DNA from: a virus
Strand: one strand, 5' to 3'
Length of the DNA: 39,907 nt
Virus record (IMG/VR): IMGVR_UViG_3300026097_000042
Location: 1-39,907 of that record
Shown here: positions 13,016 to 18,186 of the stretch, piece after piece
How the letters are laid out: each line of letters begins with the position of its first letter
How positions within the stretch are numbered: the stretch's first letter is position 1
Position numbers and translations under genes: made by a program
The notes under the pieces: model-generated
Databases searched by the model: none
What the model was told of the DNA's origin: nothing
Seen by the model: only the letters and a program-made list of their open reading frames with translations

Positions 13016-13462
13016 TTATGTGTCGGTTGTTTTGCCTTGTTCTTGTTCTAATAAAGCCTGTCTAAGTTTTTCTGATCCGCCTACCCTGACATTGATAATG
13101 CCATTGTAATAATCGTCGCTTTCTAATACTCGACGATCAAACTGCTCTCTTGCCTCAATGTAGGACATTTCTGCCCTGCTTTTACATAGATATAGAATTT
13201 CTCGTGTGAACTTGTCCTCGCCTAGTGCTTCAACATCTGCCTGTAGTCTATCCGAACTACCCCAATAAGTTTTCCAGTCTGACTCTTTGTATCCACGCCT
13301 GCGATTCTTTTTGCCTTTGAGAGGAGGTTTGCTTGTTTTGAACTTGGCTAGTTTTTTGCCTATGTATTTGCGCCCGTTGGTAGTATTGGTTATCAAGTAG
13401 ACGAAACCTTCGTATTCATCGGATAGTTCGTCCACGGGTTCACCTTGATAAGTCCATTGCAT
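13016..13462 (-). CDS. GIY-YIG endonuclease-like protein (Seg-like family)
   Basis: A 148-residue protein with a GIY-YIG fold start at residues 20-35 ('FVYLITNTTNGRKYIGKK', where VYL replaces GIY and YIG is exact). A basic region ('KPPLKGKKNRRRGYKESDWKTYWGSS') and 'GEDKFTREIL' follow, then a conserved tail 'AREQFDRRVLESDDYYNGIINVRV'. Related small proteins are common in T4-like phages and are usually listed as homing-type endonucleases. Some may instead be stable nucleases with other roles. It lies between hemC (50-base gap) and the structured gene-free region. Start ATG at 13462 has no clear ribosome site. No intron or split gene is visible around it. Confidence 0.75.
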   Translation of the reverse strand: MQWTYQGEPVDELSDEYEGFVYLITNTTNGRKYIGKKLAKFKTSKPPLKGKKNRRRGYKESDWKTYWGSSDRLQADVEALGEDKFTREILYLCKSRAEMSYIEAREQFDRRVLESDDYYNGIINVRVGGSEKLRQALLEQEQGKTTDT

Positions 13463-13512: not shown

Positions 13513-14268
13513 TCAACAATCGAAATAAACTGCTCTAAGCTGTATGGGATTGTCCCCGCTAGCATACCCTGCTATGCGTGTGCTACAATCGCCTTGTATG
13601 CCTTTCAGTAATGCTCTTTCCAGCATTGCTTGCCTATAAGTTAGATCGTGATTGGCTGTTTTTGCAATCGTGCCTGCTTCTGTGCCTTTTAGAGTTTGTA
13701 ATGCAATAATGCCTTGTCCTACAGCTGGAGTGCAATGATGTACAGGAAGTCTAATCCAACCTCTGTCTATACCCAGTGTTTGCAATCCTGCTTCTGCTAA
13801 TACTATAGCATCATATTCTCCGTTGTCTAGTTTTTCTAAACGTGTGTCAATATTTCCTCTAATAGGTTTGATTTCAACATTTAGATTTGAATAAAACTTT
13901 GATAACTGTGCAGTTCTTCTTGGACTGCTGGTGCCTAACCGAAATCCGTCAAAGATATTGCCAACTACTACATCGTATGGACTGTTTCTTTCTAATACCG
14001 CAGATATTTCCAAGTCAGGGTGTTCTACATCACCTGGCATGTCCTTTAAACTATGCACAGCAATATCTACTTGGCCATTTAACAGTGCAGTTTCGATAGC
14101 ATTACAGAAAACACCTTTTCCTCCTATTTCGTGAATAGGAGTGTCGGCATTGATATCACCGTCTGTTTTTATAATCACAATCTCAGTGTCGCAATCTAGT
14201 TTACTGCACACAAGGTCAGCATAAGCCAATGCAAGTTTACTGCCTCTAACACCTATACGCACAGTCAT
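13513..14268 (-). CDS. hemC: Porphobilinogen deaminase (hydroxymethylbilane synthase), short form
   Basis: 251 residues, clearly HemC: it would join four porphobilinogens into hydroxymethylbilane in tetrapyrrole (heme) synthesis. Key features seen: 'RIGVRGSKLALAYADLV' (substrate/cofactor-binding Arg8, Ser10), 'GGKGVF', 'DIAVHSLKDMP' with catalytic Asp76, 'GTSSPRRTAQL' (Arg117/118), 'IRGNIDTRLEKLDNGEYDAIVLAEAGL' (Arg137/143), 'PAVGQG', and 'IQGDCSTRIAGYA' with Cys228, the expected dipyrromethane cofactor attachment. Bacterial HemC is about 310 residues. This one stops roughly 60 residues early, soon after the cofactor Cys, so domain 3 is cut short. All active-site elements are present, so activity is plausible but unproven. 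It overlaps the upstream small ORF by ATGA within the gp55-47-46 operon, so it is a phage-resident gene rather than a stray host fragment. Confidence 0.92.
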   Translation of the reverse strand: MTVRIGVRGSKLALAYADLVCSKLDCDTEIVIIKTDGDINADTPIHEIGGKGVFCNAIETALLNGQVDIAVHSLKDMPGDVEHPDLEISAVLERNSPYDVVVGNIFDGFRLGTSSPRRTAQLSKFYSNLNVEIKPIRGNIDTRLEKLDNGEYDAIVLAEAGLQTLGIDRGWIRLPVHHCTPAVGQGIIALQTLKGTEAGTIAKTANHDLTYRQAMLERALLKGIQGDCSTRIAGYASGDNPIQLRAVYFDC

Positions 14269-14474
14269 TGATCTTCCGGTTTTTTGTCTTTGAGTTTTTG
14301 TTTTTCTTCTCGCAATTCTAAATTTCGAGCTTTTGCAATGTCTCTAATTTTTCTTGTGCATTGTTGCACGGCGGCATAAGCACGAAAACTGTGCTTGCGC
14401 TCCCACCATTCATTGGCTTTAAAGTATTCTAAGTATGCTCTTACTAACTGTTCGTGTAAATCTTCGTCACTCAT
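14265..14474 (-). CDS. Small helical phage protein between gp46 and hemC
   Basis: 69 residues, helical, charged and basic at the end ('LVRAYLEYFKANEWWERKHSFRAYAAVQQCTRKIRDIAKARNLELREEKQKLKDKK'). Short proteins with this 'AYLEFLKANE.F....S.R....V....R.IR.LA..R' pattern occur near gp46 in related marine phages. The function is unknown. It starts two bases after the gp46 stop and overlaps hemC by ATGA, so the three genes are translationally linked. Confidence 0.7.
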   Translation of the reverse strand: MSDEDLHEQLVRAYLEYFKANEWWERKHSFRAYAAVQQCTRKIRDIAKARNLELREEKQKLKDKKPEDQ

Positions 14475-14476
14475 CC

Positions 14477-16249
14477 TTATTCCACAATTTCCAAATCATT
14501 TGCATATGAAGTAAATCCATTCTCTTTGATAACTTTCAGCACATTATTCACACGACCTACCAGTTCGTCTTTGTGCGAAATAAGGAAAATGTTCTTCTTG
14601 CGTTCTCTGGTCATCTTCTTAAGAACCGCAATTGCATTTTCTACACCAGAACTGTCCATGCCTGAATCCACCAGCTCGTCAATAAACAACAAATTGATAT
14701 TTTGATATAGGCTTTCCCAAACATCACGAAATGCAAAGCTCATGCCCAGTATCAGTCTGTTGCGCTCGCCTCTTGATAGGTTATCAAAGTCTAAATCCTG
14801 TCCCAGCTGAGTGATTTCCACACTCAAGTCGTTCTGGAATGTCACCTGATGAGGAAGTCCTAGCAAGCTCAAATAATATGTCAGTCGATTGTTTAGATAC
14901 ATTAGATTTTGATCAATAATCTTTTTGCGAATAAACGAATCCTTATTGGTTAACAGTTTCAACAAGAACTCTTGATGGTCTTTGAATTCGCTCAGGCTGT
15001 TAACTGTGTCCCAATTGATCTCCTGCATCGCAGTAGAATTCAACTCGTCTATCTGTGCCTGATAAGGATCATCTTCTGTTTCTTTGTTGGACAATGCCTG
15101 CGTTAGACTGTCAACATTGTTTCTGTGTTCGTATGCTTCTTTGGCGCTTTCATAGAACGTGCTGGGTCTACCGTTGATATCTCCGATTTTGTTTAGATCA
15201 GACAACACTAATTCCAGTTTGTCAGCAACTTCTGTTTGATATGCCATTGCATCAGACAGTTCTTTTTTCTTTCGAGATAAGATTTCTTCTTTTTTGTCTG
15301 CATGCAATGCCTGTCCGCAGGTATAACAGGTTGCGCCATCTAATTCACCAATGTCAGTCTCGGCTTTCTTTACACTTTTGTCTGCACGAAGCAGTGCGCT
15401 TTCCAGTGTGCTCTTTTCTTTGTTAAGGGCCGAGATAGCATTGTTCATCTCAGTCCAATTGTTAAGCTTTTCATGAGCTTCAAGTTCTGCATCAATGTCT
15501 AGATGTTCCAGTTCTTCAATGGCATCCTGCAATTTTTCACAGTCTTTCTTTTTCTTAGCCTGCCAAGCACGCTGATTTTGTTTTAGATTGTCAATTGTGC
15601 TCTGTATCTTCTTGTTAGACTCTTCAATGGCATTAATTTTAAATGTTTCTTCAGTGATTTTTTCTTTGATCTGTTTGATTTCGTCTTTGAGTTGATCAGC
15701 TTTCTCACTGAGGATTGTAATGCCCAACAGTTGTTCGATGATGTTTCGCTGATCGTTAGCCCGCATGCTCAAGAAAGGCTCTGTGTAAGTGTTCAGCGCC
15801 ACAATGTGTTTAAACATATCGTGACTCATGCCTAACAGATGGTTAATGTCTTCTTGAGTTTTGCGGCTGTCGCCTTGCGATTCGTCTTCTTCTATCTGCT
15901 CTTCATTGTTGATAAAGAATTTCAGCACATTAGGAGAGCGACCCCGCTCTATCCTATAATCTGCTCCGTTCTTTTCAAAGGATAGGGTGACCAACATCCC
16001 TTTAGAATTAGTCTTATTGATAAGATTATTCCGTTTGATGTTGGTCAGTGCTTGGCCGTACAAAGCATAACTAAGAGCATTAATGATCGTAGTTTTACCC
16101 GTACCGTTGCGCGATCCTGAATCGTCACCTCCTTGGTCTAAATTTTCACCAAGCACTAAAGTTAAATTGGTTTGATCGAAATCCACTGCCTGGGTTTGAT
16201 TGCCCACGCTCATGAAATTCTTAACAGTTAAATCCTTAATTTTTATCAT
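14477..16249 (-). CDS. 46: Recombination endonuclease subunit gp46 (Rad50/SbcC-like)
   Basis: A 590-residue SMC-type ATPase. Walker A 'GSRNGTGKTTIINAL' lies at residues ~45-58. A long coiled coil is interrupted by the zinc hook CYTC (Cys308, Cys311). The ABC signature 'LSRGERNRLILG' and Walker B 'NLLFIDELVDSGMD' lie near the C-terminus. With gp47 it forms the Mre11/Rad50-type complex that resects DNA ends for recombination-dependent replication and helps degrade host DNA. The gene start overlaps gp47 (ATGA at 16246-16249). Length agrees with T4 gp46 (560). Confidence 0.95.
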   Translation of the reverse strand: MIKIKDLTVKNFMSVGNQTQAVDFDQTNLTLVLGENLDQGGDDSGSRNGTGKTTIINALSYALYGQALTNIKRNNLINKTNSKGMLVTLSFEKNGADYRIERGRSPNVLKFFINNEEQIEEDESQGDSRKTQEDINHLLGMSHDMFKHIVALNTYTEPFLSMRANDQRNIIEQLLGITILSEKADQLKDEIKQIKEKITEETFKINAIEESNKKIQSTIDNLKQNQRAWQAKKKKDCEKLQDAIEELEHLDIDAELEAHEKLNNWTEMNNAISALNKEKSTLESALLRADKSVKKAETDIGELDGATCYTCGQALHADKKEEILSRKKKELSDAMAYQTEVADKLELVLSDLNKIGDINGRPSTFYESAKEAYEHRNNVDSLTQALSNKETEDDPYQAQIDELNSTAMQEINWDTVNSLSEFKDHQEFLLKLLTNKDSFIRKKIIDQNLMYLNNRLTYYLSLLGLPHQVTFQNDLSVEITQLGQDLDFDNLSRGERNRLILGMSFAFRDVWESLYQNINLLFIDELVDSGMDSSGVENAIAVLKKMTRERKKNIFLISHKDELVGRVNNVLKVIKENGFTSYANDLEIVE

Positions 16250-17259
16250 TCTAGCCCGTTATAGATATCTAAAAGTGTTTTCTTGCTGTAATTTTCAGTG
16301 TCCAGCTCTGCAATTTCAGTAGACACGATTTGATCCACACTGCTGAATGCAGATATATCCAGGTCAGTGTTGATTTCTTCCATCTGCTTCTGAGGAATCA
16401 GTGTGATTTCTCTGCAATTGTACTGATTGATGTATGTTTCTTTGAGAAAATTAGCTTCTTCGAACGAAATTGGAATGTCAATGGTCACTCGAAGATGCAT
16501 TTTAGGCAGAATTATGTCTGCACTGGGGTCTAACAGTTGGCTTAACTTGATTGTGCGATACTTAGGACAGTCTGCCCAGTTGATGTATTGTGGCTCAAGG
16601 TCATTTTCTTTGTCAATGATCATCATACCACGCTCGTCGTCCCATGCATCAGCATAGTTGTGCGGAAAAGCATTGCCAATATAGTGCACAGAGCCCTGCT
16701 TTTGGCGTTTGTGGAAGTGTCCTGAGAACACATACTCCTGATGTTTGAAGTGTTCTTTCTTTAGATCACCGTGATCGGGCATTTGTACCATGGCATTCAT
16801 ATAGAAACTGGGCAGTTCAAAGTGTCCAAACATGTATTTGCTTTTGATCTTTTCAATTTTCTTCCATTCATCGCCTACCAGCCACGGCACGATGGTCACA
16901 TCGTCCTCGGTCACAATGGAATCGATAAATCTAATGCCAGGTATGTACCGTGCAAATGCTGTTGAGTTGACATTTCGCTTGTCTTTGTAGTATAAGTCGT
17001 GGTTACCATCAAAGAAAATAAACTGATCGAACCCTTCTCCCAGCTTTTCTAGACTGCGAATGGTAGAATCCATGGTGGTTAGATTTAAACTGTTGCGATT
17101 GTGATGCCAGTCACCGCAGAATATACCAGTTTCGCAACCATTTGCCTGCGCAGTTTCAATAAACCAGTCCACAAAGTCTTCACAGTCACGGTTATGTTGC
17201 TTAGAATTACTTTTCAATCCGAAATGGATGTCAGTAAATACAGCCGCCTTCTTAAACAA
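16246..17259 (-). CDS. 47: Recombination endonuclease subunit gp47 (Mre11/SbcD-like)
   Basis: A 337-residue metallophosphoesterase (T4 gp47: 339). All metal-binding motifs are visible: 'FTDIHFG' (Asp10, His12), 'CGDWHHNR' (Asp50, His52), 'FDGNHDLYY' (Asn86, His87) and 'FSGHFHKRQ'. It supplies the nuclease of the gp46/47 complex. The start is TTG at 17259 with AGAGGA eight bases upstream, and an in-frame stop just before rules out a longer form. A sigma70-like promoter lies in the 51-base gap after gp55. Confidence 0.95.
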   Translation of the reverse strand: MFKKAAVFTDIHFGLKSNSKQHNRDCEDFVDWFIETAQANGCETGIFCGDWHHNRNSLNLTTMDSTIRSLEKLGEGFDQFIFFDGNHDLYYKDKRNVNSTAFARYIPGIRFIDSIVTEDDVTIVPWLVGDEWKKIEKIKSKYMFGHFELPSFYMNAMVQMPDHGDLKKEHFKHQEYVFSGHFHKRQKQGSVHYIGNAFPHNYADAWDDERGMMIIDKENDLEPQYINWADCPKYRTIKLSQLLDPSADIILPKMHLRVTIDIPISFEEANFLKETYINQYNCREITLIPQKQMEEINTDLDISAFSSVDQIVSTEIAELDTENYSKKTLLDIYNGLE

Positions 17260-17285: not shown

Positions 17286-17314
17286 AAAATATGACAGATT
17301 TCGCTAGTTGTCAA
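17286..17314 (-). promoter_or_regulatory. Possible internal sigma70-type promoter before gp47
   Basis: On the minus strand: perfect TTGACA (17314-17309), a 17-base spacer and TATTTT (17291-17286, four of six). The -35 overlaps the gp55 stop. It would allow gp47/46/hemC to be transcribed independently of gp55. Confidence 0.4.
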
Positions 17315-18186
17315 TCGTTTTCTTCCTTTGGCTCCGAAGATTCTTGAGGAACATCAAAATCGCCACCGTCTACATCAGCTTCTCGCTTGAGTGCCGCTTC
17401 CCATTCGCCCGCATGCTGTCGAGTGTATGAAGGATTAAGGTCGTTCATTTCAAGAATATCGTCTCGAATGTTCTGATTGCGTTTTTCTATGTTGATAACT
17501 CTCACAAATGAGTTAGTAACCGCGGCTGTATAGTATGCAAATGGATTGTTTGACTTGGATTCGTCAAACTGCAAGCCGATCTGTGTCAATTGTAAGATTG
17601 CCTGCCCTTTCATTTCGTCATTATAGGTATAGCCGCGAACATTACCTCTAGTTGCATAGCGTTCCACCAGTTTCAGCCACATAAGTGCTAGTTTGTTTGT
17701 GGTCTGTCCGTGATCTTTGGAGAATTTACCAGTTTTTACACCGCCCTTCCAGTGGCTTTTGCCCACACAGATTAATTCCCCTTCGTCGTCGTACTTCCAA
17801 TGCTGAAATGGAGGAAAATTCAGTTTGGTTTTGGTATCCGCAATGGTTTTAGGATTCTTTTTTCGACCGGGTTCATCTGGAATGTGATCAAATGTCATCA
17901 CTCGAAAGATTAATTCTTCTTTGGTAATGTCTTTGGCAAACACTTCGCATTCTGCCTGTTTGATTTTTTCACCCGCTTCCTTGGAAGCCTCGTATGCTTC
18001 GTAGCTCAAACGTTTTGCCTTTTCCTGTTTAGCCTCTTGAACTGTGGTTGCGTTGATATCGCTGGTGCTGGATAATATGAGATCGTATTGATGATATTCC
18101 TGCCTTGAATAACTGTTGTATGTGTTCTTTGATTTGTGTATTTCTGCTAACAAGTCTCTGTTGTTAAGATAATTCTTTTTTCTCAT
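17311..18186 (-). CDS. 55: Late-transcription sigma factor gp55
   Basis: 291 residues. The conserved sigma core lies at about 165-262: 'LALMWLKLVERYATRGNVRGYTYNDEMKGQAILQLTQIGLQFDESKSNNPFAYYTAAVTNSFVRVINIEKRNQNIRDDILEMNDLNPSYTRQ'. This matches gp55 of marine T4-like phages closely. gp55 directs host RNA polymerase to TATAAATA late promoters, several of which occur in this window. T4 gp55 has 185 residues. Here there is an N-terminal extension of about 110 residues (a Lys/Glu-rich helix and 'PPFQHWKYDDEGELICVGKSHWKGGV'). ATG 18186 has AGGAG twelve bases upstream. It is the first gene of the leftward operon and has its own sigma70-like promoter. Confidence 0.92.
   Translation of the reverse strand: MRKKNYLNNRDLLAEIHKSKNTYNSYSRQEYHQYDLILSSTSDINATTVQEAKQEKAKRLSYEAYEASKEAGEKIKQAECEVFAKDITKEELIFRVMTFDHIPDEPGRKKNPKTIADTKTKLNFPPFQHWKYDDEGELICVGKSHWKGGVKTGKFSKDHGQTTNKLALMWLKLVERYATRGNVRGYTYNDEMKGQAILQLTQIGLQFDESKSNNPFAYYTAAVTNSFVRVINIEKRNQNIRDDILEMNDLNPSYTRQHAGEWEAALKREADVDGGDFDVPQESSEPKEEND

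Follow-up and report, generated by a model that had tools for sequence, protein, structure and literature searches.

A phage-encoded hydroxymethylbilane synthase with a trimmed domain 3, and heme-pathway operons in related viral contigs

The window analysed here, a complete IMG/VR virus record of 39,907 bases, carries on its minus strand a compact run of phage genes that is closed by hemC. In order of transcription, and all on this strand, the run comprises a gp55-like late sigma factor (17311..18186; phrog_12791, 4e-79), the gp47-like SbcD subunit (16246..17259; phrog_100, 2e-61) and gp46-like SbcC subunit (14477..16249; phrog_77, 1e-104) of a recombination nuclease, a 69-residue open reading frame with no database match, orf69 (14265..14474), and hemC itself (13513..14268), with a SegE-like GIY-YIG endonuclease gene following 3' of hemC (13016..13462; PF19835, 1.5e-35). 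Pfam, NCBIfam, alignment and a fold model identify the hemC product as a 251-residue hydroxymethylbilane synthase (porphobilinogen deaminase) with a truncated domain 3. The gp47 and gp46 genes overlap, 3 bases separate gp46 from the start of orf69, and the orf69 stop and hemC start share an ATGA overlap, in agreement with the translational coupling to phage core genes that the original prediction described. That hemC belongs to the recombination and sigma-factor run also holds, although it is the last gene of this run, on the minus strand, and does not lie inside it. The SegE-like gene is separated from the next minus-strand reading frame by about 440 bases (12579-13015), and a tRNA search of the window found none.

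Homologues of orf69 adjoin hemC at the gp46-segE locus, where the frame is conserved in many contigs and usually lies just downstream of hemC. It is unlikely to supply the missing part of HemC domain 3, having no Pfam match and being absent at other hemC loci; contig L340, moreover, has orf69 and hemE with no hemC.

Assignment of the window protein to the HemC family is clear. It scores 243.9 bits against the NCBIfam hemC equivalog TIGR00212, for which the cut-off is 164, and matches PF01379 with E=1.3e-62; the match to PF03900 covers only positions 3-38 of 74, and its score of 24.6 falls below the cut-off of 26. When 67 distinct phage HemC sequences are aligned with 139 from cellular organisms and with that of E. 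coli, E. coli R11, S13, K59, K83, D84 and S129 correspond with R8, S10, K51, K75, D76 and S115 of the window protein, and R131, R132, R149, R155, Q198 and C242 with R117, R118, R137, R143, Q185 and C228. All 12 of these cofactor and catalytic residues are invariant in the 67 phage sequences, including the cofactor-binding set (R11, S13, K83, S129, R131, R132, R149 and R155 in E. coli numbering), and every active-site motif expected from the initial reading is thus present, with the catalytic Asp at D76 and the cofactor Cys at C228. Domains 1 and 2, these Asp, Cys and Arg residues and the fold are common to the phage form and cellular HemC (E.C. 2.5.1.61; E. coli 1PDA); C55, G79, P116, Y126 and G223 are among the residues specific to the phage form. 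Since the equivalog cut-off is exceeded and the active site is intact without a complete domain 3, the latter is a usual but not a defining feature of HemC. Another short HemC family, NCBIfam NF002202 (PRK01066; 241 positions), differs from the phage form; the window protein reaches 92 bits where the cut-off is 251, and, to judge by the alignment coordinates, the NF002202 model seems to stop short of the cofactor Cys that the phage form retains.

The phage copies are 245-253 residues long, compared with 284-326 in 140 cellular HemC sequences, and the short length noted at the outset for the window protein is therefore clade-wide. Only 21-27 residues follow the cofactor Cys in the phage proteins, whereas 44-78 do so in cellular enzymes, a C-terminal shortfall of about 40 residues relative to a typical cellular HemC. 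A complete HemC domain 3 is a three-stranded sheet with three helices. In the AlphaFold2 model of the window protein, built on the 67-sequence alignment (pLDDT 93.3), domains 1 and 2 are kept and domain 3 is reduced to one helix (208-223) and a hairpin of two strands (232-238 and 242-248), with Cys228 in the loop between them; the last strand and the remaining helices are absent. A first run with 19 phage rows gave residues 223-251 a pLDDT of about 45, and the 67-row alignment resolved them. The model superimposes on E. coli 1pda with Z 30.9 and 1.4 Å for 239 residues, the last of them E. coli residue 266. The second strand is the last element of domain 3 in the phage form.

In human HMBS nonsense variants are nearly all highly damaging, and within domain 3 neither positions 316-320 nor Gly346 tolerates change (PMC10577081). 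The importance of the missing region in the human enzyme is the chief ground for doubting that the phage form is active, and is also what would make an active phage form informative. One alternative is an active enzyme with altered properties, in which the trimming of domain 3 shifts the chain length, the turnover of the cofactor or the release of product, for example towards faster release or towards shorter or longer oligopyrroles. The cofactor Cys is indeed carried by domain 3, no member has the last strand and helices of this domain, and two residues implicated in elongation and exit, E. coli Q19 and R176 (PMC3945110), are replaced in the phage forms by Tyr and by Ala or Thr respectively (Thr at R176 in the window protein). 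Full-length SAR11 HemC has the identical two substitutions, however, from which we conclude that they are independent of the truncation, and every cofactor-binding Arg checked is retained. The altered chain length or release that had been proposed thus has no evidence of its own, and we consider it unlikely.

A protein that has lost a large part of domain 3 might alternatively have been repurposed, acting not as a synthase but, for example, as a sink for porphobilinogen or for the cofactor, or as a binder of host enzymes; domains 1 and 2 have the periplasmic binding protein fold. Unrelated binding-protein folds align to the model at Z about 10, far below 1pda. The invariance of the catalytic Asp and cofactor Cys in 67 sequences, together with the operons that hemC shares in relatives with hemE and hemF of later steps, makes repurposing distinctly improbable.

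Two scans of IMG/VR found at least 87 distinct contigs with a short-type hemC gene, the first giving 46 genuine contigs and the second 80 contigs among the matches listed, of 218 candidates. Two further frames, L048 and L049, were rejected as spurious. Except in L165, a frameshifted copy with a 179-residue frame and the remaining match out of frame, the stop position is common to the contigs of both scans, and a HemC identical to that of the window occurs in a separately named 82-kb contig. Pairwise dN/dS has a median of 0.157 and a maximum of 0.32 (1979 pairs from 71 sequences), and this low value indicates that the short form is maintained by selection. In most contigs hemC lies among phage genes in conserved phage synteny, as expected of an auxiliary metabolic gene. 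The missing C-terminus, and the fact that the window record is itself merely a 40-kb fragment, might have pointed to a recent host fragment, an assembly chimera or a decaying passenger. The shared stop position, the identical second copy, a dN/dS near 0.16, the syntenic phage flanks and the long phage-only stem described below already contradict such an origin, to which we give almost no weight; the tree and the number of contigs rule out a recent host fragment confined to one contig.

Among INPHARED isolate phages no close relative of the window HemC was found. The matches obtained there reach at most about 40% identity, come from bacterial-looking or unannotated records, and were rejected as phage relatives; they are probably host contamination. 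The original description of hemC as an unusual phage gene is accordingly right in that the gene is uncommon, although a porphobilinogen deaminase had already been mentioned, with coproporphyrinogen oxidase, in one deep pelagimyophage genome, PMP-MAVG-4 (Zaragoza-Solas 2020, PMC7029224).

Phylogenetic comparison with cellular enzymes places the phage proteins in a phage-only clade on a long stem. In the careful tree the short forms are one clade (support 98/99), whose sister group is a set of 273-279-residue phage forms; the joint support is 100/100 and the stem length 0.84. The short-form clade is old and monophyletic. SAR11 (Pelagibacterales) HemC, in contrast, has a full domain 3 and 303-323 residues, and the deep branching that places the phage clade near it is weakly supported (62/95). 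In a quick tree Ehrlichia grouped with the phage clade, possibly through long-branch attraction, and it was omitted from the later tree. The joint presence of Q19Y and loss of R176 is found in most SAR11 HemC and in the phage forms, but no other cellular sequence tested has it; the sole listed exception outside SAR11, L247, is from a Pelagibacteraceae genome (G027). This shared pair of changes suggests that the old phage clade, too, had a SAR11-type donor. The Mosig-type, or pelagimyophage-type, copies (L315, L317 and L321) are of full length, at 290-303 residues; they nest within SAR11 (100/100 and 96/82) and are a separate, more recent capture. The baseplate protein of L321 shares 58% identity with its counterpart in pelagimyophage Mosig. 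As described, PMP-MAVG-4 resembles the present phages in carrying heme-pathway genes including hemC and hemF.

We draw no conclusion that SAR11 is the host, the window having 40% GC compared with 29-33% in the SAR11 loci checked. The window portal protein and gp46 are closest to those of the jumbo phages PA5oct, Phosso and Atu_ph07, at about 49-52% identity, and on this kinship we regard the window as a fragment from a T4-superfamily phage related to them; with core proteins nearest to jumbo phages, it falls outside the pelagimyophage (HTVC008M/Mosig) group. Related pelagic phages and the literature suggest that the phage group is marine.

The relatives supply the pathway context, since no other heme gene was found in the 39,907-base window or in the 82-kb contig with the identical HemC; all contigs are fragments, and gene absence therefore proves nothing. 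Genes for other steps overlap or adjoin hemC at several recurring loci. The first type, seen in mapped contigs, has the order gp55-gp47-gp46-[hemE]-[hemF]-hemC-orf69-segE; the window differs in that orf69 precedes hemC and in having no hemE or hemF at this locus. The second is 2OG-oxygenase-[hemE]-[hemF]-hemC-exonuclease followed by nrdA-nrdB, the 2OG-Fe(II) oxygenase-like gene adjoining hemC (7408-8007 in L024) being present in many contigs. The third is hemF-hemC-hemE-hemB, with a HemC of 273-275 residues, and the fourth, exemplified by L321, is hemF-hemB-hemC, where HemC is of full length. Among the viral records covered by family searches, 10 have hemE and 8 have hemF, and none has hemD or hemH (contig G378, below, lay outside the hemD and hemH search); heme oxygenase, bilin reductase and alaS are present in several. 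Because HemC, HemE or HemF served as bait in finding the contigs, the choice of query biases how often given genes are seen together.

The HemE and HemB proteins tested score above the Pfam but below the stricter NCBIfam equivalog cut-offs, whereas HemF scores above the latter. Two of these enzymes also seem to be trimmed. Phage HemB (L309:7667-8518 and L321:5788-6579; 263-283 residues) matches PF00490 from about position 26, its N-terminal arm seemingly missing, and phage HemF (L159:9219-10001; 260-264 residues) is matched only to about position 270 of 294 in its family model and so ends early. In L142 (7840-14508), several aspartyl/asparaginyl hydroxylase-like genes are interleaved with hemC and with a hemE of a second, divergent type, and there is a radical SAM-like gene upstream.

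Phage tetrapyrrole genes have been described before. The phage AlaS, HemO and PcyA of Wegner 2024 are active (PMC11480375), and some genes of that alaS/hemO/pcyA-X cassette share contigs with hemC here. That study concerns 5-ALA synthesis and heme breakdown, and no hemB, hemC or hemF came up in a search of its text. In the open-access literature searched, which leaves subscription papers and preprints outside, we found no report of phage hemE or hemB, of hemB/C/E/F operons or of a truncated HemC clade. Relative to that literature the trimmed clade and the operons are new, while a phage porphobilinogen deaminase (PMC7029224) and phage alaS, hemO and pcyA (PMC11480375) were already known. Phage tetrapyrrole metabolism, previously a matter of isolated genes, thereby comes to include multi-gene heme operons, carried by a widespread uncultured phage group.

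We think it probable that the product of the window gene is a functional hydroxymethylbilane synthase whose domain 3 is naturally minimal, and that it would supply a heme-pathway step during infection, although the replacement by Thr of E. coli R176, linked to elongation, is a counterpoint. From the intact active site we infer that the dipyrromethane cofactor would be loaded on Cys228 and that Asp76 would couple four porphobilinogens, with release of hydroxymethylbilane, which host HemD would close to uroporphyrinogen III. The onward steps to protoporphyrinogen IX could be taken in relatives by phage HemE and HemF, and the host would complete heme; in the window phage, where only hemC is seen, HemC may relieve one slow step. 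The likely benefit would be sustained heme for respiration, and bilins in those relatives with heme oxygenase and bilin reductase. That hemC often lies beside further heme genes suggests that these phages run part of host heme, and sometimes bilin, synthesis while infecting; the addition of hemE, hemF and hemB in relatives fits the increased tetrapyrrole flux first proposed. The trimmed HemC would also be a natural experiment on the need of HMBS for domain 3, a region in which human variants cause acute intermittent porphyria.

The fullest gene set is in the 107-kb contig G378 (L328, L372-L377), which has alaS, hemB, hemC, hemE, hemF, heme oxygenase and bilin reductase. We put at about even the chances of a broader proposal, in which a natural minimal HMBS functions without most of domain 3 and some members encode, with these seven genes, most of the route from glycine/succinyl-CoA to bilins, leaving the HemD and ferrochelatase-type steps to the host. 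The genes of G378, a hemF-hemC-hemE-hemB cluster, a bilin reductase/heme oxygenase pair and alaS, lie within 84655-88184, 53270-54506 and 95840-97045, and some neighbouring reading frames resemble, by eye only, GMP reductase and curli-type secretion genes.
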